Assembly: GCA_947034885.2 (NCBI GenBank)
Contig: OZ019759.1
Coordinates: 4,404,501 to 4,468,500 of the forward strand
Direction: 5' to 3'
From: Thuidium tamariscinum
Lineage: Eukaryota > Streptophyta > Bryopsida > Hypnales > Thuidiaceae
DNA: 64,000 nt
The notes beneath the pieces were generated by a model. The model was given only the letters and a program-made list of their open reading frames with translations. It had not been told where the DNA came from and did not search any database. This document shows, piece after piece, positions 5,039 through 41,934 of this stretch. The number at the start of each line of letters is the position of its first letter. Positions within the stretch are counted from its first letter, which is position 1. The translations under genes and the position numbers were made by a program.

Positions 5039-5185
5039 AGGGCAATTTTGTTAAATTGGCGACATTCCATGTGCCATTTTTCTTATTCCATGTGCCAGTT
5101 TGTTGTATTCCATGTGCCATTTTTTCATATTCCATGTGCCACTTTGCGATATTCCATAATTATGGCACTTTTGAATGGAGGCGCA
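5039..5185. repeat. Left terminal inverted repeat of the large insertion
   Basis: The outer 25 bp nearly match the complement of the right end. Repeat units of 21-22 bp begin at 5064, 5085, 5107 and 5129 (ATTCCATGTGCCA...), with a fifth partial unit at 5151. A stretch just inside, around GGAGGCGCAGAGG, is shared with the third end at 55.5 kb. Confidence 0.85.
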
Positions 5186-6136
5186 GAGGTTGAGGAAGAT
5201 GTTGCATGCCGTAGCTTTATCTCCTTGCTTTCGTTGAAGTGGTGAGCACTGTAGAACTTGGTCGCCTCCAGAAGCGGAGCCCGTCTACATTGAATGAAAT
5301 GAGAAGTTGTCCCACATGTCTAGGCTTGCACATGCAAGCAATGACAATTTGTAGATACTTTTGAATGTGGCCCATCAAATTTTGAGAAGGTCCACAAGTC
5401 GAGGGGCCTTATCGGTTAGTCCCCTCCTCCCAATGAATGGCAGAGGGTGCAGTTGACGGAGACGTCGTCACGGATGGAAATGCGTGCGTTTCTGACTCGA
5501 GTCGTTGGCGAGGGTGCGGTCAAGGAGTACCGGATCGAAGAGACTGAGGTTCTATTGAACTGAAAGAACGTGAATAACTGTTGAAAACATCTACGAAGCA
5601 ACTACATCTCGACTTCATCAAGCGGCTTCTCTATGGGAGAATTTTGTCAAATGTTGGCTTCAGTCCCTGATGTTGGCCCTTAGATCGATATGGTGACCAA
5701 GTTTATTAGAGTAGCCAAGACCCTAGTCTTTGTTTCTTCGGTTCTTTTTCTCTTCTATTTTTTTTTAAGGTTATTGACTCTCTATGCAACCGCTTGGCTT
5801 TGCCGATTTTGTGTCTCGGTGCTTCTAAATGAAGTGCGGTTTTTCCATTCGCTCCCAAAAATTGAAGAACATGAAGTAGTTGAAAACATAGTATTTTTTT
5901 GCACATGAAGGTCGGGAGTTGGTACAAAATGAGTTGAGGAACTTGGTTGTCCATATTTGTAAGACTACGTCTAAAAAAGTTTTCACAAAAAAGAACATAC
6001 TATTGACGGGCTATCCATTTGAACGAACGATGACCGTGTGCTACTGTGTTTTGCTACGCAACGTTGAGGAGACCCCCTTTCCCAAAATAGAGCACACTTG
6101 TCAATGGTATTCAAAGAAGCGCCCACTTGGGGAGAT
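5186..6136. other. Inner flank of the large insertion, no gene recognised
   Basis: Frames at 5416-5601, 5690-5908 and 5919-6284 are short and overlap others. None shows a domain. The C terminus of the minus-strand DUF7869 copy ends at 6137. Confidence 0.4.
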
Positions 6137-8022
6137 TCATGGTGATGGGGCTTGTTGTTCATCCTCTGCAATTCGGCGTAAATTATCCACGGCAAATTTA
6201 ATTTGTTGTCGAGGAGCAACAAAAGTGGCTCCTTCATTTTTATGTGGTTTCCATGATGCCATGATGCGATCCGTCGAAACGTAGTCGTTTTGGGAGGCTT
6301 GTTTGTTGACCTTCCATCTGAATTGGGCTTTGTATCCTACCTTGCGTATAGTCGTTGCATGTCCTTTGATGTTCCGCAGGGTAGGTGCCATCGCAACAAG
6401 ACCTCTCAAAAGTGGCTTTCTCCAGGATCGAATTGTGGATCTTCCACTGCTCGTCCGAGCCACACGGGCTCTACATGACTGTGTGCTAGTCTGACAAAAA
6501 CGTAGAAGCCTACGCGAAGATCGGTGACCATGCTGTACGTCCATGGTGGCCTCCCTTCGAGGATACCGATGTAGGGGTCTTCTTCCTCGAGTTCCTCACG
6601 CGTTCGCCCGTCTTGCATGAAGTCCGTCATGAAATCCCTTGGTTGCCTTGTTTGAGGCCAAAATCCCTCCTTCAATTTGTCGGAGTAGGGGGGGTCTAGT
6701 TCACCTTGGTCACGCAAGGCATTTCTCACGGCGGTCCAATATGTGACCAAGTAAGACATGCGTGCTTTATATTCCGCCGTCCCATCTTCTTGTGCTATGT
6801 CTATCTAATGTTGAATGTATCCGTCTAGCTCGCGTAGGATGTCGGCTTCCTTTGTCATTTTCGAGGGTTTGATGCTGAGCAGATCACTGGAAGGAAGGCT
6901 GGGCTTGTGCTCCGCATCTTCTTTCCACAGCCTGAGTCCTTCTTTAGGCAACCATGGAATGTCCGTGCATGCCAATTTGTATTGCATGATGGGCCACCTA
7001 TTGTCGTCCATGAAGAATTTGTATTGCCTTCCATTAGAGTGGCCCACCAATTGCTTCTTGTTCATCCCGATGTAAGGTCTGACGTACGCTTTGAAGTCGG
7101 GCACTTCTTCTATGAGGTGCGGGATGAATGGAGCTTCTTCCATGTCCATGTACGACTGCATCAGGAAGGACAGGGTCGGATGGTCATTTTCACGGAGTTC
7201 CATGCTCCATCACCCGAAAGACGCGTCGATGTTGTCGTGTGTATGTCCGACGATCATGAAGGATACCATGACCTCTTTCACGATCCTCTTTGCCACGAGG
7301 AGGGACCAAAAACAAAAGAGGTACTTGTTTTTGTTCTCCCTCCAGGAGTTGTCCATTTGAATGTGTAGGACCGGTGGCAACGGGAGAGCTTCGATCGTGG
7401 GCGACGGAGCATCTCCCAAAGATTCGACACAAATCTCGCTCCCTTGGAGTAATGCACAATACAGCGCCGTGCGACCGCTCCCTTGGAAAAGCGATTGAGA
7501 TGATTTCCCAGGCGGGGCTTCTACATCTCGCAACAACTTTGCTATCGAGCCCACCGTGAAGTTGCTGTCGACGGGGAAGACGTCCAAACTGTAGTGAGCA
7601 TACTTGCCATCCTCGTGCTCGTATACAAACATGGCGGTCACTTTCACTGGCAACTTCATGAATCCATCCAATGCATTCGTCTTCCTTGCTAGTGCCGGAC
7701 ATGCGGTTTTGGAGTGATCCATTTTGTTGTGCATGATGGACAGGAGTTGAGAAGGTCACATTGTAGATAACCATCTGCTACGATAATATGCATGTCGGCA
7801 AGCTTCTTGGAGGAATAAGTGTTTCTCAAAACGAGCTTGGATTCATTGAAAGTCCTCGGACCCCGGTGCATATGAAGCACGCAATTGCTTTAAGTTGTTG
7901 CAAATGCTGCATCTTGCAAACGAATCTCCTCAACCTTTGATGACGTATTCAAAAAAGTGTTTCATTCAAATTTTACTAAAGCTCGATTGCGAGAGGGGCA
8001 ACAATCCCAGTTTCTCGTTGGC

Positions 8023-9246
8023 CTACATAGAACAAGAAACATGGTCAGCCTCGGTTCGGTGACATGCGTTCTTCCAAGGACTCCAAATATTTCATTGCTC
8101 GTACGAGTATTGGCATGTGGGCACTCCATAAGGCCATATTTGTCATATTGAGACTTTTCGCAAATTTTGAAACAAAATGCTAATTATTAAAAAATTCATT
8201 CAAAAAAATAGTATATATAACCAAAAATAAACAATACTCAAATAGTGATTCTATAATGAAATTCTAAAGGTTGGTGTTGTTGACTATTTACAAAAAAATA
8301 CTAGTGAAGAGATAAAGAGGTTTATCTTCAAGTCAAGGATAAAAATGAGACAACAAAAAGTCTCAATATAACGAATATGACCTTCCATGATTATAAAATG
8401 GAATGCATGGAATTGATTACAGAGAAGACGAATGATTGGGATCGACGTTAGAACTTAGATGTGCAAAGAAAACCACTAAATTTGGTTTCTTGCCAGATTT
8501 CTAAAAATGAAGTAGCACTTCAGAAGACATCATTTTCGAGCCAGTTAGGCAATGTTGAAGACCATGTACCATTCTTCAACGACGTCATTCTAGCAAGCGG
8601 TAGTTTGGATGACGATGAAATTGGTTACAAAATTCAAAAATTAGGTGCATTGCATATACTCCGTGCGACGTGTTGTAAACATGATCACGTGCTTAGCGTG
8701 AATGCCTACTATGTAAAGTCTTCACATGACTTTTGCAATGTGAACGTCCTCGTCATCCAATGTGATGATCATGAAAGCCATCAGTGATGCAATTGTTGTG
8801 CTTTATTTTCCTTTTGTCATCTCTACAGTCGACATCAACAGACCCCCTAGCTTGGCCACTATGACTAAATTCAGGGGGGAGGAGAAAAAACATATCGTTA
8901 ACCTAAATATTTGTATCGATGTAATTCACCTTGATCCTTGTCCTTGCTCTTTTGGGGCCTTTGGTTGCGAAATTGAAATCAGAATTTGAAAGAGAAATTA
9001 CTTGCAAATAATAAAGAATTGTAATATTTCCACTTGTCAGTGAGCGAGGGGATGAGTTCACCGCAACCATCTTACTATGCTTATTTTGAATTTGAATGAA
9101 TTCATTTCTAGAAGAGTTGACATGAAGGTGCCTAAATGATCTCTTCCAAGGCGATTCCTACGAGCTCCAAGGATTTGTGCAGGTAGGGTAAACATGTGAC
9201 CGCCACCCTGTTGAGCCTAGGGCACTAACGAAGGTGTGACTTTTAC
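8023..9246 (-). other. Intron 2 of DUF7869 copy 2 (1,224 bp)
   Basis: Donor GAG|GTAAAAGT at 9,246 and acceptor TTCTATGTAG at 8,023 with a pyrimidine-rich lead-in. Joining is phase 0 and restores collinearity with copy 1, which is uninterrupted here. The intron is AT-rich and contains one weak match to the 19-bp palindrome (8323-8341). A 108-codon frame on the opposite strand (8461-8787) has no recognisable domain. Confidence 0.75.
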
Positions 9247-10218
9247 CTCATTCACAGTTGCCAGCAGATGCTTCCATTGGGTTCCAACGGGCAAAACCTT
9301 GAGACCCACTTTCTCGCCGGTGTGCAAAGTACGTGTCAAGTGTGGCATGTGGTCCGCCTTGGCTTCCATCAGGTCATGCAATGTTTGAATGGCCTGCGCA
9401 GTGGCGGACCTCGTCTTTGTTCTATTGAAGTTGCCGTACAAAGCACCTCTGACCTCCGCCTTCGCTTTCGCTTTAAATCTCTGAAACGTGCGCATGGAGA
9501 CATCGTGAACAATCCTCCAAGCCTGTGGACACATGTGTACGCCTTCCACAGTGACGACTTCCTTGGATCCTTGCGCTCTTTTGTGCATGGACTTATGCAC
9601 CTCCAACAGCTTCGTCGTCTTCACTTGATGTGTTTGCAAGTGCAATTCCGTGCGGAGTGAACGAATGACAGGAGGAGCAATTTTACGAGTGCACCCTTGC
9701 TCGCAGTACCGTTGTTCGAAAACACGAGCGACAGATTCCCATGATATCTTCTTGGATTTGCTATCTTCCGTAGCGACGGCGCAAGTCCTCTTCTCATATC
9801 GGTATTTGCGTTTGCCCGCTGTCTTTCGAGAGCGCCCTAGATCTTCATCAAGAGCACGTCGTTTGCGAGCATGATCATAGACACTGATGAGACTGGTGTC
9901 ACCATGATAAAAGATTCGGCATGTGGGCCAACGCAAGCACGTGGCTCCGATGCTGGGGTTTCCATTGTGGACCTCCAACACCACAATGTCGACTTTGTTT
10001 TTACCCAGGCAACTTTGCCCATCAACACAAGCGTTAGGATTAGCAATGATTATGATGACGTCTGCAAAATCGGAACCGTCTTTGTTCCTTGCGAGGAGGG
10101 CCTTGCCAAACCATCCGTCGGGGGCGATCCCCTTATAGTCTGGGATGGGACTCATGTCGACGTCGACCTCCGAGGCATGATCCAATTCAACGTCCTCCTC
10201 TTCACATTCCAGGAATCC

Positions 10219-10323
10219 CTGCAGACGCTTGCATATAGCATGGTCATGAAGACATGGCAGGAGAAGCGAAAGTAGAATTCAGAAATCGAAATCCGTTAGA
10301 GGGTGCAAGGTTGAACGACCAAC
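10219..10323 (-). other. Intron 1 of DUF7869 copy 2 (105 bp)
   Basis: Donor GAG|GTTGGT and acceptor CTGCAG|GG, preceded by a pyrimidine-rich run. It removes an in-frame stop that lies upstream of the acidic N-terminal block. Phase 0. Confidence 0.6.
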
Positions 10324-10356
10324 CTCATCTCCGTCAGACTCGCTCGTGGAAGCCAT

Positions 10357-10823
10357 CCGAAGAAGTACTTTGACTTGCAAGCGCACCTGAGATCCTACTG
10401 GCAAGTACACTTGAGAATGAGCAAGATATACGGACGATTCGATCATGAAGAGTGAAGGCGATATAACAAGAAAGAATATTGGATGATCAGTCTAGGTAAA
10501 GTGAATTCAACTTCCTCAGAGCATTAATGAATCACTTCCGAATGCTCATGTAGAATTATGTGGTAATTTCCTATTCATGACTTTCAATCCTTGAAAAAAC
10601 AACACGTGATAATTATGAGAAAAATATGGCTTCATAAAAAATGCATAGTCATAGTTGAATGAAAAAAGAAATATTCATATGATGTTGACTTGTTAATAGG
10701 ACTGCGAACTCACTGAATTAACCTAAATGAATCTTTTTATTTAAACGTTTGGACAAACTGAAGGTAATGAGGCCATCGAATTCAGTTCATGAAGGTCTCC
10801 ATCCCTAGCAGGCATGCGGGTTT
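10357..10823. other. Upstream region of DUF7869 copy 2
   Basis: No TATA box is evident on the minus strand near the start codon. The stretch is AT-rich with no gene or repeat recognised. Confidence 0.4.
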
Positions 10824-11680
10824 TTAACCCTTTAAGGACCGGTTGACCACTTTTTGGTTGATTTCTGCACTCTCGGTCTAATATTGGTCAAAATACATTT
10901 GATGACAAAAATCTCAAAGAGTAACGCATTTAGAGTGTCTTCATGTGCTTCAAAGAAAACCAATTTCAAGAAAATTGGAGCATTAATGCATTAGCTATGA
11001 GGTTGCAAACTCAAATGGCGTGGACCCTAAAATGGGAAGTGTTCAAAAAAAATACAAAAAACAACAACCAATTTGTGAGAATTTTTTGTATCTTGATGTC
11101 TTGAGAAGGCATAAGTGTTGCTTTGTAATCTCATGAATGCCCAAAGTAAACTTATGCATTGAAATTTATGTAGCGCAAATTCTAAAGGGTCATTCCAGTC
11201 ATTGATTTTTGAGGATTAAGGGAAACAGCTCAAATTCCAACAAGGCTCTAAAAGCAAACATGATTTAAAGGTATATTTTGCTTTCTTCAATGTACCAAAT
11301 CTGCACATTTTAGAAGGGTATTGCTTTTGATGACCACATATGACCATTTTCTGTGAACTTCAGAAATTTGTAATTCATTTCAAAAATCTTCAAAAAATAT
11401 GAAATGACTTTAATTAGATGCCTATTCAACTTGCTTCCTGTGAAAAATGTACTAAAAAATATTTAAAGATATTCCACCTCTCCAAAATTAAAATGTAGCC
11501 CTAAAAGGTCAATTTATGGACCCACTTTATTTAAAGCAATTTGTACCGTTGGATGAGTTTGATTTTTTGTTAGTTGGAGGAATCTCCCTTACGACAATAC
11601 TTTATACAGTTTGATCTAATATTACACTTTCTTGAAGAACTACGCCCGAACCCCAAATCAACCGATCCTTAAACGGTTAA
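10824..11680. mobile_element. TTAA-bounded repeat element, type 2 (copy D)
   Basis: It opens TTAACCCTTTAAGGACCGG and closes with the near complement, CCGATCCTTAAACGGTTAA, about 850 bp apart. The interior (about 11,230-11,520) is related to the miniature element at 27,072-27,369, so it carries a nested relic. Non-coding. TTAA with CCC-starting ends is the piggyBac pattern; assignment is inference. It shares its last TTAA with the next element. Confidence 0.65.
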
Positions 11681-12538
11681 ACCCCTAAAGCCCTGAACAA
11701 CGTTTTCTAAGATTATAAATTTTTTTGGCAGCTCACTACGGATGGAGTTTTTCTTTTTTCTCTTTGAAATTTTGATACAATGTGTGCTTGAGGAGTAGCT
11801 TCAAGGCCCAAGAATTTTCATAACTCTTGACATAAAAGTGAAATTTCAAATTGGTTCTTTAAGTTTATATAGACATATGAAGTTTTGAATCAATCCATTC
11901 CGATCAATGAGTCAAAAGTTTTGAAGATTTTGAGTTTGGGGTAGTTAGCAACCAATTACAGAATCCGTACAGTAGAAGAAAAGTTTGAAATTCTTCATTT
12001 AATTCAGTTTTTTATATTTTTGTAAAAAAATAAAAACAGAAGGTGTAGATTGTTTATTACAACATTTCAACCATTGGGATTTCGAATTTTCAATTCCATG
12101 AATAAAATGTTCACAATTCTGTATTTTGGCTCATTTTTTACTTCTTTCTACTTACTTTTTTTTTCCTACATGCTGTACAATTCCAAATGGTTTGAAATCT
12201 GTTGAGAATGTACTAGCCAACTTGCATTGAAGTATGAATTCAAAGAGTAACCACCATTTTGAATTTTGTTCCATACAAATGTGACCTTGTGAAGTGCAGT
12301 TGCCCGTATTTTCGCAGGGATAAATAAACAGTTTTTGTCAATTCAAATACTTCTATCTTGCAATCTACACAGTGGAAATTTCTGAAATATTTCCCACATG
12401 TTTACAAACCACCTGACTACAAGATCCTACGGTTCCACAAGTCAAAACTGTGTTTTAAAAAAAAGTGGCACTAGTATTAGAAATTGCAATTTTGTAGCAT
12501 TTTTGGTGAAAACATAGTCAAAAACATTTAGGGGTTAA
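11677..12538. mobile_element. TTAA-bounded repeat element, type 1 (copy A)
   Basis: It runs from TTAAACCCCTAAAG to CATTTAGGGGTTAA, about 860 bp. Copies B (20,570), E (22,333) and partial copies F (42,369) and G (59,940) share its interior, including GGCAGCTCACTACGGATGG near the left end (copies A and E) and AGATCCTACGGTT near the right end (A, B and E; F has its complement). No coding capacity. A non-autonomous DNA transposon, piggyBac-like by its TTAA and CCC ends. Confidence 0.75.
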
Positions 12539-12763
12539 TATCCCTTGTCCACATTACTCCGCCGTCCAACTTTACACAAGTACTACTCATTTTCCAAGTC
12601 ACTTCATTCATTCCAGAAGCTAATTTATTACAATCATCCAAGCTTAGGTCATGGAAAACGTTTTCGGCGTCCACAAACAAAAAATAAAGCCGTGCACATT
12701 TTCACACATCTCTCACCAACAGAAAGTTGCAAGTTTTATTTAGGTCTCATTTCCATTTCAAAA

Positions 12764-12778
12764 CGCGCGGTCTGAACT
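12764..12778. promoter_or_regulatory. Half of the TTCAGACC...GGTCTGAA palindrome
   Basis: CGCGCGGTCTGAACT matches the right half of a palindromic motif that recurs at 13,719, 16,827, 17,029, 17,211 and 17,395. Confidence 0.45.
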
Positions 12779-12997
12779 CCAATATTGAAGTGTCCGTAAC
12801 TACGCGAAAGTCTCCCGTCCGTCTGTGTAGCCCTTCAGTATTCGACCGGAATGTATTCAAGAGACCTTCAGGTTTCGTCATGATCAGCAACATAACGAAA
12901 CAAAGTAAGTTAGACTGCAAGTGGAAATGCTCAACAAAGAAGACAACTGAGGATGAAAACAATTCAGAAATCAGGCAGTGGAAGCGAAGCATTCACT

Positions 12998-13492
12998 TCA
13001 ATGCATTGCGGGTGTCACCCAAACTATGGGGGACAGGGCCTGCCCAGCAGCCTTCACCTTGATTTCGTGCTGCCAACTGCTAAGTAGAATTCGTCGTAGC
13101 TCCTGCAACTCAGTGACAGCGAGATCATCAAGGGGGCTAGTCCACAGCCTCAACGGCACTTCAACTCCAAGTGCCCATGATCTGCTCAGTAAATCCAAAT
13201 TCTTGTCAAACTCCTGCAAAATCAAATTCTCCTTCATCGATAGAGAGAGCTCTAGGGCGATGACTTGCACGTCAAATTTGGCCAACAGGAGGGCTGCAAA
13301 TTCAAGTGTCACCTGCACAGCCTTCCAGGTCATACGACAAACAACTACGAGACACGAAAACAAACGCAGCATTGCGCCCCGATTCACCAGTTCCTCGAAA
13401 CGCACCCATGGATTGTCAGACTTGCAACAAAGTCCACGAACAACAAGGGCCACGACGGCGTCACTCAGAACCACTTCCCTCATTGAACCCAT
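12998..13492 (-). CDS. Uncharacterised 164-aa leucine-rich helical protein
   Basis: The start chosen is the ATG at 13,490-13,492 in the context ACAACATGG; the frame ends in TGA at 12,998-13,000. The protein has no signal peptide or obvious transmembrane segment. It is rich in leucine and valine with alternating charges (WVRFEELVNRGAMLRLFS, ALELSLSMKENLILQEF, LQELRRILLSSW), which suggests a bundle of amphipathic helices. I do not recognise the family. A TATA box sits about 100 bp upstream of the start and a short upstream frame (MSTLLL) precedes it. It is the only intact frame with its own promoter inside the large insertion, so it is a candidate cargo gene. An antisense frame of 176 codons covers the same bases but lacks promoter and start context. 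Confidence 0.55.
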   Translation of the reverse strand: MGSMREVVLSDAVVALVVRGLCCKSDNPWVRFEELVNRGAMLRLFSCLVVVCRMTWKAVQVTLEFAALLLAKFDVQVIALELSLSMKENLILQEFDKNLDLLSRSWALGVEVPLRLWTSPLDDLAVTELQELRRILLSSWQHEIKVKAAGQALSPIVWVTPAMH

Positions 13493-13594
13493 GTTGTGCA
13501 ACTACTGAAAGAGGAAACGAAGAAACGCTCGCACTCACAAAGACCAAGCACAGATAAACTCACAGAAGAAGTGTAGACATGGCGGGATGAGGAG

Positions 13595-13740
13595 CATTTA
13601 AATACCCTCGACATTGGTAACAAGGACCTGACCTCCCTGCGAGACAAGGCACAGGAACCTAACCGCTTGGCGAGACTACATCTTGGTGAGACTACCGCCT
13701 GGCGAGACATCGCTGCACTTCAGACCACGCGATCTGAACT
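13595..13740 (-). promoter_or_regulatory. Promoter of the 164-aa gene
   Basis: On the minus strand a TATA-like GTATTTAAATG lies at 13,605-13,595. Upstream, between about 13,636 and 13,716, a GTCTCGC/GTCTCAC core recurs four times, and at 13,719-13,740 there is a TTCAGACCACGCG/ATCTGAACT palindrome shared with other sites in 12.7-17.4 kb. Clustering directly upstream of the TATA box suggests binding sites. Confidence 0.5.
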
Positions 13741-14405
13741 GTATCAACGATTCATGGACTCCGGAAAATTCCAAGAGCAAAGTGCATTGACAGAGTAAAT
13801 AATGAACCCACGAGTGTGCCAATTTCTGAAGACTTGCTTCCCAAGGATTCCAGCCATTGGAATTGCATTACTCACTTCAGATACTTGAAAAGGCACGCGA
13901 TCTATGGCTATACGAAATGCAGCAATGCTATAACTCGAAGTTGATCAATATCTTGGAGACTGAGCGGCAGTTCAATGCTCACACCAATTCCTTCTATTCA
14001 GTCACGAAATGATAGATAACCATTACTCATTTCCGAATCAAATTGGAAAGTCATGCACTGACTTCACTATTGAAACTCCAGATGATTCCATTTGATCACT
14101 CTGTTGCGTCTCCAGGGAATCTTGTACTAGTAGACTTATGAATGGGACTCGTGCTTATGAGGAAATGATTGCTCATCCGGATTCCTGATTTCATACATTT
14201 GAAATCGTTGGTTTGTTCAGGAAATTAAAGAACAAACAAACACCAGGACGACAACAAAATCACCCACTGGAGACACCGGCACCATCGTCATCCATTGACG
14301 TTGAAATATTGAGTTCGCGAAATAGTGAACTACTAACAAGAAGTTCCATCAAAGTAACAGTCGGACAAATAAAAAAGGGAAGTAGTGCGCTTCCCCACAA
14401 GTAGC
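13741..14405. other. No gene recognised
   Basis: One 63-codon frame (14213-14404, plus) without domain or start context. Otherwise unremarkable. Confidence 0.35.
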
Positions 14406-15230: not shown

Positions 15231-15316
15231 TTTAGGAATGATCGCCTTATCACCGTTGTCATACTAACCAGGACTGTGCATTTTGAAGACAACTGATCGT
15301 TGCTCTTTTCATTCAG

Positions 15317-16374: not shown

Positions 16375-16560
16375 ACAGTCCACGACGCGGGGATGCAAAG
16401 TATTTGGGGTACAATGACTCGGCTGATCGGACCAACAGCAAAGGAACTAGAGCTCAGATATTGGAGAACAGATTACCTAGTAACTCCCTGTCCGACAGGG
16501 GACATGTAACGGACTGGTAGACTAGAGTACTGGTTTCTTTTTGGAATATATGATATTTTT

Positions 16561-17418: not shown

Positions 17419-17444
17419 GTGGAATCAATGAAATGGCATGTTCA

Positions 17445-27690: not shown

Positions 27691-28628
27691 CCGACCTTGC
27701 TTGCTATGTGGCATAAACCAATTGATGTTTTAGAAAATTTCTACATGTCTAAGTTGATGTTGCTCAAAATTGTATGCAATTTTTCTAGACACTGAAATCA
27801 TAAAACTGCTCATAAAGTGGAGTCTACCATCTTTAATGACATTCAATACATATTCAATCACCTATAAAGGATTGACATGATGTCACTTGTTCTTGGTCTT
27901 TGCGGCAGCCAATTCGTTGAAAAATGATAAGTTTTGGAAGTTATAGTTTTCAGATAAAATTGGGTTCAAATGTAGATTGATGGATTCTGATGGCTCATGG
28001 AAATCAATTGGTCACATTGACATGACCTTGATATTCAAAATCTACAATGAAGCTCGCTCGACGGTATACACAACTCTAAAATGTTAATTACAACAAATCA
28101 ATTTGAAATATTCAGTGTGATAAGAAGCCTTAGGATTCATTTGGTTGTAATTTTGGAAAATCATGTTAGTATGTATCCATACATGCTACTTTCAAGATGT
28201 ACAAATGGATCCAATAATCATACAAATTTGGCTACTAGTAGTACCAAATAAATTGAAAGAAACATTAGTAAGAGAAATTCGAGAAGCTTGAACGCAATTA
28301 TATGTACTACAAATTGAATACTTCTCCAAACCATACATTCTATTATAATTGTAGTGAACAGTATTCCCTTATTGCAAAAAAAGATGCATCATTAAAATCA
28401 TCTAGACTTAACTAAGTACTCAATAATTCAATAATTCAATTGCATATATACACTTAGATGAATATTCATGAGTGCTGTCAAAATTTCAATTGTGTCCCCT
28501 AAATTCTCCGGAAACTTCATTGAGTGAATAATTACTTGTGAATGCTTTGGAAACTTCAAGTGTTTGTTTTGTATGTGCACCTAATTAATTTGTGGTGGTG
28601 GTACAATTATCAACAGTTAGTTTGAGTT
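27691..28628. other. Upstream region of the BTB gene remnant, no gene
   Basis: AT-rich; no TATA box, reading frame or repeat could be assigned. Confidence 0.4.
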
Positions 28629-29416
28629 ATGGAGTCTGTACAATTGGCAAATGTTGACACTACAAAGTTCCTCATACCGGACGAGTCAACAACAACAAAG
28701 CCAAAGTGGAATTGCTATGATTTCACACTCAAGATGTTGGAGGAAGGTGTATTTGCAGACATCACGCTCAATGCCAACAACGGCTTTGAGAAAGCACACA
28801 GAAGTGTGTTAGCATGTGTGTCACCTATCTTCAAATTAAACTATGTTGAAGCACAACATCAAGGAGCATGTGCACATGCCTCACATCTCTGTCGAAGCTC
28901 TACAATTGTTTCTACTTTTTCTCTATACAACAAAGAAAGTGGACGAGGATATAGTCGCAAGTTTGCTGCAGATGACAGATTTAGCGCTCTCATCGGCGGA
29001 TCAGCGTTTCCCTAACATCCACAAGGTAGTCCTTGAGTACCAGATGCCACCTTTTAGAGCCGCTATTGATAAGCATTTGGGGGAAATTTTCAAGGCCTCG
29101 GTGAAGTACCGGGTAGAAAGGAGACTCGGATATGTTCTACTATGAATCGACTCTGGCTAGGAATTTGACACTTGAAACCTGTTGGCACTACTACGGAAGT
29201 TCATTGATGGCAAAAGGAAGGTCATTCAAGAACAGTGCCCTTCATGTCTGTTTGGATTACATACTAGATAACTACCATGATGTTATCACATCCAAAGGTT
29301 TTCTTGAAGAGATGAGGTGCACTCCATTTCAATTACAGATAGTGATCACGTATGCTAAATCCCAAGATATGCGTAAAAATGCACTTGAAAACTATCTTCG
29401 AATTAAAAGACTCTGA
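28629..29416 (+). pseudogene. BTB/POZ-domain protein, broken
   Basis: The frame starts ATGGAGTCTGTAC at 28,629. The BTB core is recognisable: EEGVFADITLNANN, KAHRSVLACVSPIFK, then HVHMPHISVEALQLFLLFLY and LLQMTDLALSSADQRFPN, then a BACK-like helical tail (HYYGSSLMAKGRSFKN and beyond) to TGA at 29,414-29,416. Plant BTB proteins of the At1g21780 type, substrate adaptors for CUL3 ubiquitin ligases, have this arrangement. The coding stretch is spread over three frames with two frame changes and no plausible introns between them, so it is a pseudogene. It is shorter than typical 320-aa relatives and lacks their N-terminal MATH-like region. Lying inside the 36.9-kb insertion, it is probably a captured host gene. 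Confidence 0.7.
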
Positions 29417-30690: not shown

Positions 30691-30729
30691 CTTGTGTATC
30701 AACTTGAAAATGCAAAACTCCGGAGCTAA

Positions 30730-33540
30730 TGTGAGCACTTTTTTACCCACCCTTGGTAAAAAAGGAAACACAACTAGGTTCTTTTAACTTTTTATGGTTT
30801 TTAATCTATGGGTGTTGTAATGGTTGTCCATTGTGCCTTCCAAGCAATGGATCTTTTCTAACTCCTACGTGTGAAAAATACACAAAACAACAAGAAATTC
30901 TAAATAACTATAAGTTTTACCCTTTTATCTCAATTAACTAAGCCACTGTGGTTTTTTATTCAAAATGAATTCAGTCTTGATTTATAATTTTTAAGTGATA
31001 GAACATGTTTTTCCATTTCTAAAAATATAAAACTTGACCTCATCCGAGCTTTCTAACAATAGTTATGGATGGATGAAGTTTGACCGCTTAATCGGTTCAT
31101 CAAACTCCATCCATTGATTTCTACTAATCTACCTTATAATTTTACTTGAGATTTGACTTTTGGGCTCTGAACTCTATTTACTATTTGACTTTCTAATATG
31201 GTTGACTTTGGATGATTTATCTAACTTTCATCCATTTTGACCCCTAAACTTCATTCTTCCATATCTTGGTTGTTTTAACTCGGTTTTCTAAGTGTTATAT
31301 GCTTTTGGAATCCTCTAGAACTAATCTATAAGTACAAAATGATAAACTTTGACTAAAACCTACTCTAGACCCTCTGAATCATGTTTGAAGTTCGGTTTAA
31401 TGGTATAAATGCTAAACTTAGGACATCAAAAAGAAATAGGAGAATTTGATTTTATACCTCGGGATTCACAATGTTAGGAAGATTGTTGTACAATCCTTCA
31501 AATTCCCCATCATTCGCCATCTTCCGCATACTCTTGGTATTTTTGCCTACGGCTTGAAAATGACTTTTTAATACAAATTTTAAATTTTAAACTTCTAACT
31601 ATTTTTTTTTCTTTCTATTCTCCTTCTTTCTCTTCAACACTATTCTAATTCAATTATTTGGCTATTCCAAGAGTTGACTTGTTTTCAGAATAATAATTGA
31701 TTTCAAATCCCTAAACAATAATTGACCTTCCGCCTCCTATCCTATCTTGGTCAATTATTATTCTATCCAAAGGTCTTAGTGGTTTAAATTGACTCTTTAA
31801 GATTTCTACCTAATCTTATCTCTTCCTAAATTCTCTTCAACCTCCTAAATTGTCACTTCATCTCTCTCTATTTTCAAAGTGGTTTTGAAAGTTCCAAGTG
31901 TTCTACTTCCTATGGTTTTTGAGCCTCTTTTTGCAATGAAAACGTTGCAAATTGAGATTCCTTAGCTTCCTACCTTCTTAACTTCTCTCCTACAACTTGT
32001 CTCTTCACTCTTCTATCTACCTTTTTCTCTTTTTAATTGATTGTTTTTGTTTAAACTATTCTAGTTCCTAGTCTATGTTTTCAAAAGTTCAAGAAATCCA
32101 AAAAATTAAGAAACCGGTCCAGCACAGAGCCAAACAGTTCGTTCGGATAGCCACCAGCACAGCACAGAGCCAGAGTAGTTTAGTTCAGTCGTCCGCTCCG
32201 CATGTTCAGTCAGCAATTCAGTTCAGTTCAGTAGTAGAACCAGACCAGGCAATCAAGCTCCCAGTCAGATTCAAGCCTCGCTCAAACTCAAGTCTTACTG
32301 TCGATGTCCAGGTTCAAGCCTTGCTCAAACTCAACTTTTCCAAACAAATGTTTGGAGACTAAACTTGATGTGTTAAAAAACACATGGATTGGAGATTTGT
32401 TCTAATTCTAAAGGAAGTTTTTGTGAGAATTTTAGTGTTTTCTTTTGGGGAGTAACATAACCAAAGCTTTGCCGTAATTTGTAAAATTCTTAAAAAGCTC
32501 TAAGACCCCAAAACACACAAAGTCAAAGCTTCGCCGTATTTTTAAATATGGAGGAAATTCTAACCAAATTCTTCAAGAGCTCCGTTGCCTAGGGACAATT
32601 AGAAGTCAAATAACAACTCCAAAAATACTACTGTAGGACAACAAGTGAGTGTTAGTGGTATGAAACATTACTACAATTAGTACAAGTTAAAGGAATAACA
32701 AGCTAAAGGACTCCCCTAAGCAGCATCGCCGATCACAAGGGAAGAACCTCTAGGATTAGTACAAAAACTTTAAGCCTCAAACAACAACAACAACAAGGCA
32801 AGTTAATTAAACAACAATTCTAGTGAAAGAAACTTGACAAAAACTTGACAAAAACTTACTAACAAGTGTAAAATACAACAAGGAAGGTTTGAAGGGACCC
32901 CAATGTTCTTCAAAGCTTCACAAAGTAGCAACAAGAGGAGCTTAAAATGCTCCAAAAACAAAAAAATTTGGCAACTTGGCCTAAATAGCCAAAATCCAAC
33001 TAAATGGACCCAAATGAAAACAAGATGGTTCAAAATGAACCTAAGGGGTGAGAAGAGAGGGAAATGAGTGCCCTTTTATACTCAAAGCCAAGGGTCACCC
33101 CCCCTAATTACCTAATGGGAAACTAGTTTAAACTAGTAAAAACTAATTTTTTCCCATTTTTCACTTCTACGCTAATCCTAACTTCTAACTTTTGGAGATT
33201 AACTCCAAATCACAAACGGATTGCATCATTGGCTTCAGAAGGCCATTCCTAATCTAGAGGACCCTCTGTCCCCTTTTTCTACCTCAAAAACTCAAAGAAT
33301 CCTAACAGTGACTAGAAACTCAAAATGGGATAGTAACCCAAGTTTTGGAGTTCACCTTTTTTGTAAAAAGTAACTAGCCTAGGCTCCTAAGTAAATTCAA
33401 GGGAGTAAGAAAAGACCCTAAGTTTATTTTATTCCAAAGTTGTGTACTCCCGATACGCCGGTCAACTCGACAATTAACTTTAAAATTGCTGATTTTAAAG
33501 GATGTTGCTAATTTTGGCATCTTTCACGATCAAAAAGTCA
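30730..33540 (-). mobile_element. LTR-like fossil related to the solo LTR at 22.5 kb
   Basis: Read on the minus strand, this stretch aligns piecewise with 23,080-26,258: the GAGTTGACCGG block near 33,470, the CTCCAAAAGTTAG block near 33,195, the TATA box at 33,080-33,074, the TACGGCGAAGCTTT blocks near 32,530, and the terminal block with GCCTTCCAAGCAATGGATCTT near 30,830. Its outer end at 30,730 is TGTGAGCAC on the plus strand. Its other boundary is unclear because it runs into a different fossil unit. No pol frame. Broken and older than the solo LTR. Confidence 0.55.
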
Positions 33541-36500
33541 CCAAACTAGTTGGGGTGCTTTATGAACATAAAAGAAACTATACTAATTTTTTGTGAGATT
33601 TTTACTGCATTCAAGGTAATTTTCATGAATTTACCATATTGGATTTGAGCGGTTGACTGCTCGGAAAAAGATCTTTAGATGATCAGAAAAAACCGAGAAT
33701 TTTTGAGAAACCTCTCATAGAATTCCTCAAGAGATGTGCAAATTTATATTTTCATTTTGCACATCTAAAGAAGGAGAATCAAATCCTGCTGTTGCAATAC
33801 AGGGTAAGTAAATTCCCCATCATACTCACAAAAATCACTGAAGAGTATAACTAAGTGACCCTACAGATCGAACCCACGAGATTCTGTGAAGTATCTGGCT
33901 TTATTAAGCGATTAAGAGGGGTTAGTCCAAAAACTCTCTAATCCGGTCCTAAGAGTAGAACCTGAATAACCCAAACAACCTAGAGATAACAAATCACTTT
34001 TCCCACGTACACCAATATTCTGTCAATCCGTTCCTATACGGACCCGAACCCTGGCTATTCCGGTTTCCCGGAATTAATCCGTTCCGTCCAACTATGGCAG
34101 ATCCGTATGGTAGTGGATTCCGCTCCTCGTTTCCTTTCGAGACCAATCCGTTCCAGATGATCCGTTCGTATCCGCTCCTTAATCCGGTTTAGCTTTGCCT
34201 ATGTTTTACCATCAGAGGGGTTGCCGCTTAATTTTGTGAGTGGTAGGCCCACCGCTCCTTCCGTGACTTATAGTGGCTGAAGACCCACTTTCTACCCATT
34301 AACTCTAAAGTTACTTCAGATCCGGTTTGATCTCTCATAGCAATGCGGATAGAAATCCGGACTGTAGGTCACACAGAGATCTCCTGTACGATCTTCTTAT
34401 ACTACAACGACTTTGGAACTACTTCCCGTTCATGTGGAGACAGGTGGTTACAAGTGTACCCGTCCGTTCCAACGTTAACCAGAACTCTTCCGTTTGTCAC
34501 TAGGACGGTGAGACCTCACAGGAGATCGGACACTCAACCGGGTTCCCTACCCAGGAGCTCAAGCACGACTAAGGAATCCCTCCCTCTCGTCTAGCCTAAC
34601 AACGGCTTTCTCACCCGGAATCTTAAGACCTAGAAGCGCTGAGGCATTAGAAATACACTCCCAACTCTTCTCTACCCGTTCTCATACACTTAGACACGGA
34701 AAATAAACACCAAAGGGAGAATGTCGCTTGCAAAACCACTTGCGCCTTCCTAACTCCACGTCACGCCGCCCTGCCAAACTCGGGAGATACACACGCAAAG
34801 CAAGAGCAAATAAAATACACAAGGAAACGCAAAAGAAAGACTCCCAGTCCGCCGCGAGGGGATTGACTTAAATAATCAGCAAAAAGAAAAAAGTGCCATA
34901 CAAGTCCGCTGCGATTAACGCTTGGTGGATCTGTTCCTACCTACTCTTGAACTGGAACGGATTCCAACCCACTCTAAGTTCCTAAATCCGGACCGAATGA
35001 TCCTGATCCGATTCTAAGTAAAAACTAAAAATACAAGAAAGGCTAACACCTATTTATCTGCCTCCGCTACTCTAGAGCCTATAGTTGGGCTTTCCGCCCT
35101 TCTTATCTATTCGAAAACCTTAGTGAGGTTCTGATTCCGTTCCCCGTCCACTGCAACCGGAGTTCCAGCGATTAGGCTCGCAAGAGACTCCGACAATTCA
35201 ATTGCCGCCCCCTGTTGACCGGTCGACGCCCGCTCCGACTTCTTGGACTACGGCGTCTTGTCCTTCCCTGGCCTCAGAGGCAATCCTTTGGAAAGATCCG
35301 GAAGAGATATATCGGAGAGTCTGATCGGAATTTCCGTCAGTCTCCGGGTACAATCTTCCAACCGTTCCGCTGCCTTCCGTACATCCACCAATGTCGTCTC
35401 CACCTGCTCGGAGAAGTCGGAAAGGATCTGGACTATCCGGCTTCCGGATATCTTCTTCTCCTTGTGGACTTCTTCGTCAAACAATCGGGCCCGAATGGCG
35501 GCCGATCCGGGTTCTCCGAATATGGCCTTCACCTGACCCGCCAGCTTGACGGTCTCCGCCGCCATCTCCTTGGTAGCGGCCTCGTTGTCCCTAAGGATGA
35601 GGAGTTCCGCTTTCAAACCGTCAACTTCCTCCTAAAGTTTCCGGTTTTCCGCCTCCTGTTTGACGAGATCCGTGGGACTGGTGATGCAGTTCCCCACTAT
35701 ACCCGGAAGAGTACTATTTGGTTGGCCATTGACCATGTCCGCGATGGACTCCAGGGTGACGCGTTTGATCTCCCAATCCACTCGAATGTTGCACAGGATG
35801 ACCGTCAGCTTCTTGAACGGATCATTCGGATCCGTTTCTTCCATTGCCGGTTCTGATGGTCTCGGTCTCTCTTCTGCGGCCGGATTCTGTCGGACCGGAG
35901 GCGATCCTCTTGTGTTCAGTGGTGTGGTCTTCTACCGCTTCACGAGCGGGACTACCAGTTCCTCTTCCTTGTCCTCGTCCTCCGGTTCGGTCTCGGATTC
36001 GGAGTAGACCTCCTCTTCATCCGTCTCCAATTCCCCATACTTCAAGACTATCTCTTGAGCATTCCACGTCTTCTCCTCCGTATCCGTGAGGAGCTGTAGG
36101 GAGCGGTAGAGATGGAAGATGTAGGGGCAGATCGGAGTCGCCCTACTCTTCCCGATGTTTTTCAACAACCAGGTGATCAGGTCCACCACGATCCGGCCCC
36201 AATCCACCCTGTGTTCTCCATTCAGGGCGCCGAAGATTGTGTTCGCCAAGCCGATTGTCACCCTTGTCGGCTTTTCCGGATGCAGGACCGGAAGTAGGAA
36301 CTTCAACAGGCGCTTGTGCCTCTCATTAACGCAGTCCATCACCCGAAATCTGTCCTTCGGGTGAGGGGTGCCGTAGAACTTATTTTGGAGGAAGTCCACC
36401 TTCCTCCCGGCCGGTCCATGCCCCTGGTGCTTGAACCCATAAACCGCCCTCCAGTGGGCTTCTGTCCACTTGTGCGCCACTCCCCGTTCCGTGTTGTCGA

Positions 36501-37270
36501 ACTGGTTCGACACCTTCTCCAACAACTCCTTGACCATCCGCTCCTCCTTGAACCCCTAGGGTTTCTCTACAAATTCTAAGCACCCCATGAGGGTCAAGTC
36601 CTCCATCAAGTTGGACTTCTCCGGCTCTGTGGAAGGGATCAGCGGAACTACTTTTTTGAGTTTCACTCCTACGAGTGGGGGAGTAGTCCATTCTGTCCTC
36701 TTTCGGCATAGCTGCGACATGACAGCTATCCGGAAACCCACACTACCTCACTTCTCTCCTAGCCGCACATCCCGTTCCTCACAAACACTCACACAAACAC
36801 GGAGAACTACCTGCACACACACACCTATACTTCTCTCGCTCGCACAACCATACCTGCACAGAAGCACACACCCGCACTCTCACTGACAGCCGCTAACCAC
36901 CCGCGCACACTAACAGCCGCCCGCTCTGAAAAGTACCAAACGCTACCACTGATAGCCGCGCTACAAAACCCGCTCGGAAAACTAACTCATAGAAAGCAGG
37001 TGAACTCAAAACGTTGAGGGTTAAAAAACACACAACGGAGCGCCTAAGAGCAAATGGGCCAACTGAAAATGTCAAGCCTTATATAGTCTCCAAAAATGGA
37101 TCCGGTCTTCCGTTCCTGATCTTCTGTTTCCGTTCCCATCCGATCAGTACCAAGTCCGGAAAGGATCCGTTCCTCCCTGGAATTGAATCCGGATAGAATC
37201 CACTCCGATTCTACAGGAGTTCGGAAACATTTCCGTTCCGGTTTTCTAGTATTATGGACCGGATTTGTTC
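33541..37270 (-). mobile_element. Fossil retroelement-like unit with gag-like frame, copy 1
   Basis: Minus strand. A TATA box near 37,085 (CTATATAAGG) is followed by frames at 36,741-36,556, 36,537-35,932, 35,844-35,632 and 35,616-35,248. The conserved block (WTEAHWRAVYGF, HPKDRFRVMDC, HPEKPTRVTIGLANTIFGA) resembles plant proteins annotated as putative transposon-associated. An acidic tail and a coiled-coil region follow. Related units lie at 45.3-48.8 and 56.9-62.2 kb. Non-coding parts are packed with GGATCCGGA and GGAACGGA motifs. No reverse transcriptase, so it is non-autonomous or only a fragment; broken in a few places. The left boundary with the neighbouring LTR-like fossil is approximate. 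Confidence 0.5.
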
Positions 37271-37917
37271 CACCACTAGTACTAGAGCATTATCCGGTAT
37301 CATGGCTGGATCTTACTCGTTCCATAAACAAATCCGGATGCTAACTTCTTGTCTTCCACTCCCAAAACTTGCTAAACGGAAGAAATCAAAAATATGCCTT
37401 GCTACACTTGCTATCTCCTTTAGCTTCCGGTAATTAGGGAATCTTTCAACCAAAAGGGAATCTGGGCAAACCGATTGCGCCGTTGGACTCCTAGAATGAT
37501 TTCCACTTCAAATCACCGTACTTAGGTTGTAGATGCCCTTCGTCGCTCTATTTGAATTTCTGTCACCTATAGGCTAACATTTGGGGTTTCTACTATTTCA
37601 TCGATGGAATGGGGAAACTGAAACCTATCTTTGAAAATCAATCTTAGGGCTCTCACATGATTCTCTTGGACCAAGTTAGCCTTTTTGCGTCTCATTGCAC
37701 AATAGGTGTAAAGAATTGGGCATTTTCTACTATATATGTTTATTTTGTACAAAATCTGGGTTTTTACCCTATCTACATGCAAGATTTGGTTACATTTGAA
37801 GGAAAATGTCCCATTGGGACCTTTTGCTATATTGGTATGTGACATCTATATTGTGGTTATTCACTCTTTTTTTATTTACTAAAATATGGTTACCTTGAAT
37901 ATGGTGAATATAATGCA
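37271..37917. other. Non-coding
   Basis: Only overlapping short frames. No gene or clear repeat assigned. Confidence 0.35.
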
Positions 37918-38028
37918 TTTTTCTGCGTTTTCGCAGTTTTTCATTGCGTTTTTTGTGTTTGTTTCAACACAACTCACTTGACGCGTTGTGTTGAAATAAA
38001 CACAAAATTTCAGGCTTTTCTTCTAGTG
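37918..38028. mobile_element. CACTA-ended miniature element fragment
   Basis: It ends CTTTTCTTCTAGTG, the same end as the element at 46,144-46,492, and contains the palindrome TTTCAACACAA...TTGTGTTGAAA. The other terminus is missing. Confidence 0.5.
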
Positions 38029-38029
38029 T

Positions 38030-40790
38030 GAAGAGTTAGTTTTTGGGGTGAAGAGAATGGATCGACTGGAGGAAGAAGCAGATCCAAGCTATTGGGCATA
38101 CATGACATTTTCCAACGTGTTAGGCCAAGTTCAAAGTCAAAGAGGAGGCACACCACAAACCACGTCCAATGAGTGCGTTAGGGAGCCAAGTTCCCAGTGC
38201 CAAATTTGGCATTGGAATGCATTGGATTACATTTCAATGTAAATTTTAGTGCTGGGGACTTGGTTCCCGAATGACTCGTTGCATGACAATGAAGGACACC
38301 AGATGAGGACTACGTGCACTCTAAAGCTAGGCTCCAAGACCAAATCAACATTCAAGAACGAAGACATTGAAGAAGTCAAACATGCATGTCCAAAAGCTTG
38401 GAATTGTCTCTTCCTCTACTGTATCCGTTTTCCTCACCTCCGAAAGTAACTCTTTATCTTACTCAACATCAAAATCCCAAACTTAAAAAGGTGTCTTTTT
38501 GTTTGGGATGTTGCTATTATCTAAAGCAAAGAGTCAATTTTGGAGGTGAGCAAAACGGAATGACTAGAGGAAGAGGCTAATCCAAGCTATTGGGCATACA
38601 TGACATTTTGCAACGTGGAAGACCAAATTCAAAGTCACATTGGAGACACGTCACAAACCACGTCCAATGAGTGCGTTAGGGAGCCAAGTTCCCACTACCA
38701 AATTTGGCATTGGAAGGGCGTTAGCATACATTTCAATGCAAATTTTAGCGTCGAGAACTTGGTTCCCGAACGACTCACAGCATGACATTAAAAGAGGACA
38801 ACCTGCGCTCCAAAGCTACGCTCCAAGACTGAATCAAGAACTTCAACAACAAAGACATTGGAGAAGTCAAGCATGCATGTCCAAAAGCTCGGGTTTACTT
38901 CTTCTTCTATTGTATCCAATTTCGTCACCTCCGAAAGTAACTCTTTTTCTTGCACAACACCAGTATCCCAGACTCAAATGCTGTGTTTCAATTTGAGATG
39001 TTAATATTGTGCAAAGCAAAGAATCTGTTTCCAAAGTGAGGAAAATAGATAGACTGGAGGAAGAAGGGAATCCGAGCTATTGGGCATACATGACATTTCG
39101 CAATGTGGAAGTGCCCAATGCCAAATTGGGCAGTGGGATGCATTACAATACACTTCAATGTCAATTTTGGCATTGGGCACTTGGACCCCAAACGACTCAC
39201 AGCATGACCATGAAGGACATTCCAAGACGACGACATGCACTCCGAAGCTAGGTTGCAAGACAAAATCAAACTTCAACAAAGACATTGAAGAAGTCAAACA
39301 TGCATGTCCAGGAGCTTAGATTCGCCTTTTTCTCTATTCCAAGAAAATTCCTCACCTCCAAAACAAGCTCCTTACCTTGCACAAGACCAACATCCCGAAC
39401 TAAAATGTTGTGTTTCTGTTTGAGATGTCGATATTGTCCAAGGCAAAGAATCTTTTTGGAAGGTGAAGGACATAGATGGACTGAAGAAAGAAGCCAATCT
39501 GAACTATTGGGCATACATGACATTTTGAAACATGACTATTGGGCAGTGGGATGCATTAGGAAACACTTCAATGAAAATTTTGGGAGTGGGAACTTGGTTC
39601 CCGAACGACTCATTGCATGACACTAGAAGAGGACTACGTGCGCTCCAAAACTAGGCTATAAGACCGAATCGAACTTCAAGAACAAAGACATTGCAAAAGT
39701 CAAGCATGCATGTCCAAAAGCTTAGATTCACTTTTTTCTCCAGTGAAGGAAAATTCCTCGCATCCAAAACAAATTACATTTGTGTTTGGGATTTGCATTG
39801 GCGTTCTCCAAGGCAAAGAATCAATTCTGAAGGTGAGGACAACGGATTGACTGGAAGAAGAAGCGAATTTGAGCTATCGAGCATACATGACATTTTGAAA
39901 CATGCAAGGCCAAGCTCCAAGTCACAAAGGCAAAATCACAAACCACGTCATTTGAGTGTTGATGGAATCCTAGTTCACAATGCCAAATTGAGCACTGCAA
40001 TGCATTAGGATACATGTCAATGTCAATTTGGGCCAGAGATACTTGGATCCCAAACGACTTCATTCATGACAATGAAGGACATTGTGAGGCAACAGCGTCT
40101 GCTGCATAGCTATGTTCCAAGACCAAAGGAAGCTTCAAGAACAAAGACATGATTGAAGAAGCGAAACGTGCATGTCTAATAACTCTTATGAGCTTTTTCC
40201 TTCTGTCAATCCATCTTCCTCGCCTCCAAGATGAACTCCACATCCTAGACATCACCAAAATCCCAAATTCCCATGGTTGCATCTCAATTTGGGATGTTGG
40301 TGTTGTCTGAGGCCAAGAGTTCATTTTGGAAAAGAGAAAAACACATTGATTGGAGGAAGAAGCTCATTGGAGCTATTGGGCATACATCACATGCACCTGC
40401 ATTGGAAGTACGCGCATTTTCAGTGAAATATTACAATGAACCGTTCCAAGACCAAAGGAAGCTTCAAGAACAAAGACATGATTGAAGAAGCGAAACGCGC
40501 ATGTCTCATAACTCTAATGAGCTTCTTCCTTCCATCAATCCATCTTCCTTGCCTCCAAGATGAGCTCCACATCCTAGACATCACCAAAATCCCAAATTCC
40601 CATGGTTGCATCTCAATTTGGAATGTCGGTGTTGTCCGAGGCCAAGAGTTCATTTCGAAAAAGAGAAGAACACATTGACTAGAGGAAGAAGCTCATCGGA
40701 GCTATTGGGCATACATCATATGCATCTCCATTGGAAGTACGCGCGTTTTCAGTGAAATAGAAAGTACAACGTACAAAATTCCAAGGCCTA
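38030..40790 (+). repeat. Degenerate tandem array, about seven units of 320-500 bp
   Basis: A landmark block (GGAAGAAG...GAGCTATTGGGCATACAT) recurs at about 38,065, 38,560, 39,055, 39,480, 39,850, 40,350 and 40,675. Between landmarks the units share GGCATTGGAATGCATT-like, CATGACAATGAAGGACA-like and AACAAAGACATTGAAGAAGTC-like blocks. The last two units (40,130-40,400 and 40,450-40,740) are almost identical. Each unit can be read in a similar frame with stops (SYWAYMTFCNV, KHACPKA), so the array may have started as a coding repeat. Confidence 0.75.
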
Positions 40791-41794
40791 ACTTCCTTTT
40801 TGGCACTTCTAAGTCTTCCTTCATATTTCATTATTTACAATGAAGCGAAAATTATTGGATGGAGGTATTTACTCTCTACATTCTAGCAAAGGCGTGGTTT
40901 GTTGAAATCCATATTCTACAAAGCAACCCTCTTCTAATTGCAACACCAACCTAACATTTCTAATCTTAAATCGAAGTTTGAAGTAGACAGGTGTTGCAAC
41001 GAGGACTACCTTACTCATAGTGGTACCTTTCCTAGTATTCCAGGGAAATTAGTACCCCATAATCTTCAGCATATCCTATTTGGAACATCGCAAAGGAAGT
41101 TGGACATGGATATTGTGCCATCTAAATCTGACAACAAAAAACAAAGACAACGAAGACATGGACCTCTCAGATTTCTCCAATGACGAAGGGGACTATAGAC
41201 TAAGAAACACTCTTAGGATGAAGAAGGCAGAGATCGTGGCGAATGTCCACGGTACTTTGAAGGTATGTAATACAAGAAAATGGGCATAATCACTATTCGT
41301 ATTGAGAAGTTGTCATAATTGACAATGAAGAAATAATTGGGGTGTGCCCTTACTATCCTATTGTTTTCCACATCTATAAAATCATGCATCACATCATGTA
41401 CAGAAATGTTTTGACGACAGAGGGCAATACATGGGAGGCTTCGTTTTCCAAATTCCCCACTCTTCTAAAAGAAAGAAATTCCAAGGTAGCTACATTCATA
41501 TCTTTGAACTCGGATTTCCCAACCTTCATTCTGTGGCCATGCACACTTTTGACCAACCAATTTATCTTTGGTTAAATTCCTAGTACCGTACTGTTTCGAC
41601 AACTTTGAAGTACAAACTACTTTGATTCGTAGTTGGCCAAGCACAAACTTTTATGGAGAACGTTTAAAAAGGTGAAGCTCAAATCAACATCTCTACCATT
41701 GTTGCTTTGTATGTTGACTTCAGGTGGACTCCCGTGCGATGCAAGGTCGCTTTGGAAACCACTCTTTGCATTGTCCTATACAATCATGTCCCTT
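40791..41794 (+). other. Right inner flank of the large insertion with exon-like segments
   Basis: A plus-strand segment at about 41,080-41,260 reads DMDLSDFSNDEGDYRLR and KKAEIVANVHGTLK and ends at a good donor (AAG|GTATGT). A second possible piece lies near 41,630-41,670 (AKHKLLWRTFKK). No family recognised and no full gene can be drawn. Confidence 0.3.
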
Positions 41795-41934
41795 CCTCCC
41801 CCCAAGAATGCCATTTTAATGGAATACCGTCCCGTTTGTAGGGAATGTCGCGCCATTATAATCGAATGCCATGCCACTGTAATGAAATGGAATGCCACTG
41901 TACTGGAATATCGCCATTTTAACAAAATTGCCCT
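41795..41934. repeat. Right terminal inverted repeat of the large insertion
   Basis: Read inward from 41,934 the complement is AGGGCAATTTTGTTAAAATG, followed by about five 20-22-bp units containing ATTCCA or ATTCGA and GTGGC or ATGGC. It matches the left end at 5,039 closely in the outer 25 bp and by repeat architecture further in. Confidence 0.8.

Follow-up and report, generated by a model that had tools for sequence, protein, structure and literature searches.

A stretch of 64,000 nucleotides from the moss Thuidium tamariscinum (assembly GCA_947034885.2, contig OZ019759.1, positions 4,404,501 to 4,468,500; hereafter the window) harbours a large insertion, probably a degenerate copy belonging to a family of giant DNA transposons that move by cut and paste. 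Dispersed copies of this family share terminal inverted repeats (TIRs) of ~32 bp, subterminal arrays of 21–22-bp repeats, 4-bp target-site duplications (TSDs), an outward-facing gene of the DUF7869 family beside one end, and a recurring set of three further genes: a BTB gene, a gene represented by open frames of 579 and 490 amino acids (aa), and an NLI-interacting-factor (NIF) phosphatase. The genome comprises 363 Mb in 19 contigs, of which C11 holds the window, and its 49 matches to Chloroa_b-bind mark it as that of a green plant.

Self-comparison of the window aligned inverted ends at 5037–5069 and 41904–41936 over 33 bp at 93.9% identity (E value 1e-6), bearing out the matching ends described in a first-pass annotation of this DNA, and the repeat arrays it had reported inside both ends are likewise present, with a period of 22 bp on the left and 21 bp on the right. 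With the ends set at AAGGGC, the left flank reads ...AACATTT, the element occupies 5038–41935 and the sequence resumes as ATTTATCC..., leaving a 4-bp duplication. The 6-mers CATTTA and TATTTA, formerly proposed as the duplicated site, are a near match only and overlap the first base of each TIR. The boundary features are as follows.

5038–41935: whole element, an insertion of ~36.9 kb with ends AAGGGCAATTTTGTTAA
5038–5069, plus strand: left TIR, a B-type end, starting AAGGGC in the window and mostly ATGGTC elsewhere
41904–41935, minus strand: right TIR, an A-type end
5064–5157, plus strand: left subterminal array, ~22-bp unit ATTCCATGTGCCA..., at the inner side of the end
41852–41909, minus strand: right subterminal array, ~21-bp unit, at the inner side of the end, with the 21-bp period detected over 41852–41899
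5034–5037: left TSD copy, ATTT, 4 bp
41936–41939: right TSD copy, ATTT, 4 bp
3642–5037, plus strand: left part of an interrupted, decayed DUF7869 gene resembling the 951-aa clade
41936–42292, plus strand: continuation of the interrupted DUF7869 gene

When the element and one ATTT are taken out, the halves of the decayed landing-site gene are joined in frame, as the annotation had held for the gene copy it saw split by the insertion, and the rejoined junction reads HYEKNIYPTN*NHTIGSIARLL where an open copy has HYGLDIFPHDSNYTIGSMARLL. This gene is distinct from the element's own DUF7869 gene (minus strand, ~6.4–10.3 kb), which the first-pass annotation did not name.

Genome-wide, a 32-base end pattern allowing at most 3 mismatches returned 554 matches, and its reversed control none. 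A-type ends begin with AAGGGC or ATGGGC and continue as GTACAGTGGCATTCC; B-type ends mostly begin with ATGGTC and continue as TGTGCCATTTT. From ~100 listed matches of the 554 and a second listing of ends, 34 A and 37 B ends were transcribed manually, typed by eye and submitted to a pairing test, which yielded 18 inward-facing A–B pairs at distances of 20–170 kb, against a mean of 0.32 and a maximum of 4 in 2000 runs of random placement; controls pairing outward-facing or same-strand ends gave 0 pairs. These first lists had been drawn up after pairs had been noticed, and the test was therefore redone on exact matches alone (21 A and 32 B ends), again giving an excess of inward pairs (11, against a random mean of 0.16 and a maximum of 2) and none outward. 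The 18 paired elements have a median size of ~56 kb and are spread over nine chromosome-sized contigs. The annotation's refuting condition, a lack of other such end pairs, does not hold, since 17 further pairs exist, but they are not uniformly spaced (30.7–163.6 kb).

The TSDs provide a second line of evidence, since a perfect 4-bp duplication flanks 14 of the 18 pairs when each is matched to its own flanks, compared with 8 of 306 mismatched flank combinations. No pair (0/18) matches over 5 or 6 bp, and the 6-bp duplication formerly assigned to the window gives way to the 4-bp ATTT. Six short copies of 184–266 bp bear the same ends, five of them with a perfect 4-bp TSD and the sixth matching at three of four bases. 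That the elements are segmental duplications or assembly joins with chance-similar ends is extremely improbable, for their flanks differ among copies while the 4-bp repeats agree, the 18 pairs lie on nine separate chromosome-sized contigs, and the window site rejoins in frame; for the family as a whole, the TSD and pairing controls also argue against it. In its favour stands a mirror-image arrangement of matches on C9 at ~22.6–23.0 Mb. There, at ~22.61–22.98 Mb, matches to DUF7869, the 490-aa gene, NIF and BTB are arranged together with B ends as mirror images around 22.796 Mb, a pattern that suggests an inverted duplication of ~370 kb.

Gene content was established from a relative at C8:1943214–1995501 (52.3 kb), the sole element read through, which contains a stop-free DUF7869 exon (PF25273, E 8.6e-43), a NIF phosphatase (PF03031, E 1.5e-10) and a BTB exon (E 3.4e-7), while its 579-aa and 490-aa open frames have no Pfam match (best E ~0.07). 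The Pfam scan covered 191 of its 203 open reading frames (ORFs) of at least 75 aa at an E cut-off of 0.01, a procedure that intron-split genes could escape, and the remaining matches (PAZ_2, UPF0093, PH_PKH3_C and HemY_N, E 0.0001–0.004, one ORF each) were taken as chance. No polymerase, integrase, capsid or packaging family was found in these 191 ORFs, in keeping with the failure of the first-pass annotation to recognise polymerase, integrase or capsid genes in the window, and 72 of the C8 ORFs had no match in PHROGs, which covers viruses of prokaryotes only.

These scans bear on two alternatives. The annotation had pointed to Polintons/Mavericks on the strength of AG/TC-type ends and a 6-bp duplication, and a large TIR element with terminal AG does recall them; however, the TSD is of 4 bp rather than 6 and the scanned ORFs hold no match to polymerase B, integrase or capsid, so that this reading was rejected on TSD length and gene content as far as scanned, and its probability is negligible. 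Integrated DNA viruses, or fusions of virus and transposon akin to Teratorn, a fish element of 41–182 kb with TIRs, many genes, a piggyBac-like transposase and herpesvirus genes (PMC6431247), are also a very unlikely explanation. Great length and recurrent genes, some of them of unknown function, would suit such an origin, and the moss elements resemble Teratorn in size, TIRs and number of genes, but no virus genes are recognised in them: the 191 scanned ORFs of the one element read through, a scan that intron-split genes would escape, lack polymerase, capsid and packaging families, 72 of them have no match in the prokaryotic-virus set PHROGs, and the recognised cargo, BTB and NIF, is of a cellular kind.

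Across the family, the DUF7869 gene is the most constant component: every one of the 18 paired elements has a match, invariably pointing outward and 1.1–6.8 kb away from the B end. Matches to the 490-aa gene and to NIF each occur inside 17 of the 18, and matches to BTB in 14, some of these being fragments. Going from the B to the A end, the genes are arranged as outward-facing DUF7869, BTB, 490-aa gene and NIF, with the exception of a 163.6-kb element on C9.

A candidate role for DUF7869 as the transposase is suggested by its sequence as well as its placement. The ratio of nonsynonymous to synonymous substitution rates (dN/dS) is 0.08–0.11, at dS of 1.4–1.7, for the C8, C4 and window copies compared with one copy at 76% carrying three stops, 0.31–0.40 among the C8, C4 and window copies themselves, and 0.09 for one pair of genes of the 951-aa clade; because values lie near 0.1, the protein appears to be strongly constrained. 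Five aligned rows contain invariant aspartate- and histidine-bearing motifs (KMDH, LDxxxxDxN with D481/D486, QMDN and GHTHDxID) that resemble the acidic site of RNase H-like enzymes, and DUF7869 has both the position and the constraint expected of a transposase.

Several observations weigh against the overall reading of the family. AlphaFold models of DUF7869 built from 3 and 4 rows reached predicted local distance difference test scores (pLDDT) of 35 and 34, with no usable fold, and comparison with solved structures gave no sequence match. A single-gene DUF7869 family (L087, L088) showed no TIR resembling that of the giants. Four of the 18 pairs lack a perfect TSD: that at C11:14231 matches at three of four bases, and none is present at C4:17857, C5:27478 and C8:1943, the last being the 52-kb reference element. 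Inner genes are inverted in the 163.6-kb C9 element, which may for this reason be nested or rearranged. Outside the paired ends lie 12 of 30 DUF7869 matches, 39 of 63 for the 490-aa gene and 32 of 50 for NIF, including sites whose second end is unlisted, decayed copies and diverged relatives; the DUF7869 count of 30 (at least 84% identity) omits a partial match at C7:22204154 (89%, residues 1–321), 31 having been found in all. Selection on the cargo also looks weak, since dN/dS is 0.37–0.70 for NIF (ten pairs), 0.36 for the ParB-like part of the 579/490-aa gene and 0.38 for its 490-aa part, the latter two each from one pair compared with a copy carrying stops.

The lack of structural proof from the AlphaFold models, together with the existence of a large independent family of ~950-aa DUF7869 genes, two copies of which were read without finding the shared TIR, would fit an alternative in which DUF7869 is a cargo or target-gene family and the elements are moved by another, unrecognised gene. 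This is unlikely, as DUF7869 alone of the four mapped genes has a match in all 18 elements, lies next to one and the same end and faces outward every time, shows the strongest constraint measured, and is kept in the window element, where the 490-aa gene and NIF have no match.

The second DUF7869 clade comprises dozens of copies with open frames of ~950 aa; in the two 951-aa elements read, the right edge is sharp, and the left edge and a TIR were not found. In L087, palindromic repeats TTTAGGTCGANTCGACCTAAA at 2569–3164 and 6456–6610 flank the DUF7869 gene, and a related gene with a similar palindrome (34–137 and 486–514) is found in L105 (CADCWO010000071.1). This last sequence, the one contig with a relative among the bacterial genomes searched, is filed under a cyanobacterial metagenome-assembled genome; it holds a near full-length DUF7869 gene with 52% identity to the plant one and is probably eukaryotic contamination. 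No DUF7869 relatives were found in the viral contigs or phages searched.

Among the cargo genes, the BTB exon has 96–99% identity in 17 full-length copies other than the query, of which 11 belong to paired elements. Setting apparent element copies aside, its nearest relatives are six matches clustered at C2:29.51–29.56 Mb with 45–54% identity, which would represent host genes, suggesting that the element BTB gene is of host origin. The first-pass suggestion of an unusual plant element of very large size that has captured host genes thus stands as to size and host (18 paired elements in a green-plant genome, 14 with BTB), while capture itself is suggested by the C2 relatives. By eye, the 579/490-aa gene shows an NGQHTWKAA motif resembling ParB and a further motif, VMLVFAGAK; profile searches gave no support to its likeness to ParB or methyltransferases, nor did its ParB-like and 490-aa parts have a useful sequence match among solved structures, where NIF had weak C-type lectin matches only, taken as chance. 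Matches to the 490-aa gene are concentrated on C11, with 19 of 63 on this contig of 17.5 Mb (4.8% of the genome; binomial P 7e-11, fragments of one copy being counted apart), several of them carrying many stops. C11 may be a non-recombining, perhaps a sex, chromosome.

Within the window the following internal features were mapped.

6406–7842, minus strand: central and C-terminal part of DUF7869 (PF25273), the candidate transposase, with in-frame stops and decayed in this copy
9217–10278, minus strand: N-terminal exon of the element's DUF7869 gene, a 353-aa open frame with 88.6% identity to L061
22173–27008: stretch without syntenic match in the C8 element, an insertion or divergent region
28626–29015, plus strand: BTB/POZ exon (PF00651, E 9.7e-5), a damaged copy of the recurring cargo
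30730–38027: stretch without syntenic match in the C8 element, occupying the place of the 490-aa and NIF genes elsewhere and holding the '164-aa' repeat gene
38028–40759, plus strand: block of internal repeats close to the right end, with syntenic pieces 90–93% identical to the C8 element

The 385-aa central part of the window DUF7869 (6688–7842) has 89.6% identity to the stop-free copy in L061. In all, ~22 of the 36.9 kb can be aligned with the C8 element, the larger segments at 87–94% (pieces merged by hand), and the 579-aa, 490-aa and NIF proteins have no tblastn match (E 1e-3) anywhere in the window. Lacking matches to the 490-aa gene and NIF, carrying stops in its DUF7869 gene and containing unshared stretches, the window copy is a degenerate member of the family. 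Of the genes formerly listed, a BTB domain inside the element is confirmed by its PF00651 match. The '164-aa gene' is probably a nested repeat and not cargo, because a similar repeat also lies outside the element: open frames at 35932–36555 (inside) and at 45487–45984 and 61283–61777 (outside) are alike by eye, of a WTxxxWRxxYGF type, and probably represent a dispersed repeat gene rather than specific cargo. An open frame at 62880–63386 weakly resembles a SWIM zinc finger (E 0.044), a match that does not reach the Pfam cut-off.

The features of the family invite a mechanism in which the DUF7869 protein, as an RNase H-like (DDE/D) transposase, would bind the subterminal repeats of both ends, excise the whole unit and integrate it into short target sites through cuts staggered by 4 bp. 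The short copies, retaining little but the ends, could be mobilised in trans by the same kind of enzyme. The BTB gene would have been acquired from the host BTB family and then retained, and the window copy would stem from a single move into an old DUF7869 gene, followed by loss of the 490-aa and NIF genes and a gain of repeats and stops.

Known systems offer partial parallels. Sola elements combine 4-bp TSDs, TIRs and a DDD transposase, are mostly 2–9 kb with some exceeding 15 kb (PMC10741241), and include Sola1 recorded for the moss Physcomitrella (PMC9033089). The present family is alike in its 4-bp TSD, its TIRs and its moss host, but differs in size; it appears Sola-like in mechanism and is perhaps related to Sola. 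Giant KDZ, EnSpm and Sola-1 elements with accessory genes are reported from Ectocarpus, where the 21.5-kb Sola1-1_Ec32 encodes a 1104-aa ParB-like and DNA methyltransferase protein from a gene opposite to the transposase (PMC12477816). The 579/490-aa gene with its similar motifs, seen by eye and without profile support, is likewise opposite to DUF7869, whereas the Ectocarpus element is smaller and BTB and NIF are unmentioned for it in the text consulted. MULEs and Pack-MULEs are characterised by a TSD of ~9 bp, the latter being non-autonomous, a length excluded here because the flanks of none of the pairs agree over as many as 5 or 6 bp. Plant Pack-MULEs have TIRs, enclose gene fragments and are mobilised in trans (PMC6431247), and the moss elements, similar in joining TIRs to gene content and in the proposed trans mobilisation of their short copies, differ in having a recurring gene set with a candidate transposase gene and a 4-bp TSD. 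In Starships, a tyrosine recombinase 'captain' lies at one end; here the end gene is DUF7869, and no recombinase family was among the Pfam matches of the scanned C8 ORFs. Starships are giant fungal transposons with cargo genes (PMC12289983, PMC11623301), and the moss family shares with them a giant size (30.7–163.6 kb) and cargo, in the form of three recurring genes beside DUF7869, though in a green plant and not a fungus.

A bolder reading, which we hold tentatively and at somewhat under an even chance, is that DUF7869 is the founding member of a group of transposases, representing a superfamily of its own or else a giant Sola branch that has escaped notice, and drives autonomous cargo-carrying transposons of 50–110 kb in a land plant. 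These would be a plant counterpart of the fungal Starships, in which a BTB gene of host derivation and a NIF phosphatase gene are retained as functional cargo. Giant gene-carrying transposons have been described from fungi, algae and fish (PMC12289983, PMC11623301, PMC12477816, PMC6431247). Among the matches listed from the open-licence literature there was no account of a giant transposon family in mosses, nor of such a giant family in papers on Sola and mosses, and the name DUF7869 was absent from the open-licence literature searched. The presence of a BTB gene in most copies, and of tiny copies with the same ends, is part of what makes the family notable. If this reading is true, plants would gain a vehicle that moves whole genes, in a recurring order and over up to 110 kb (163.6 kb in the rearranged case), and a function would be assigned to a domain of unknown function, DUF7869.

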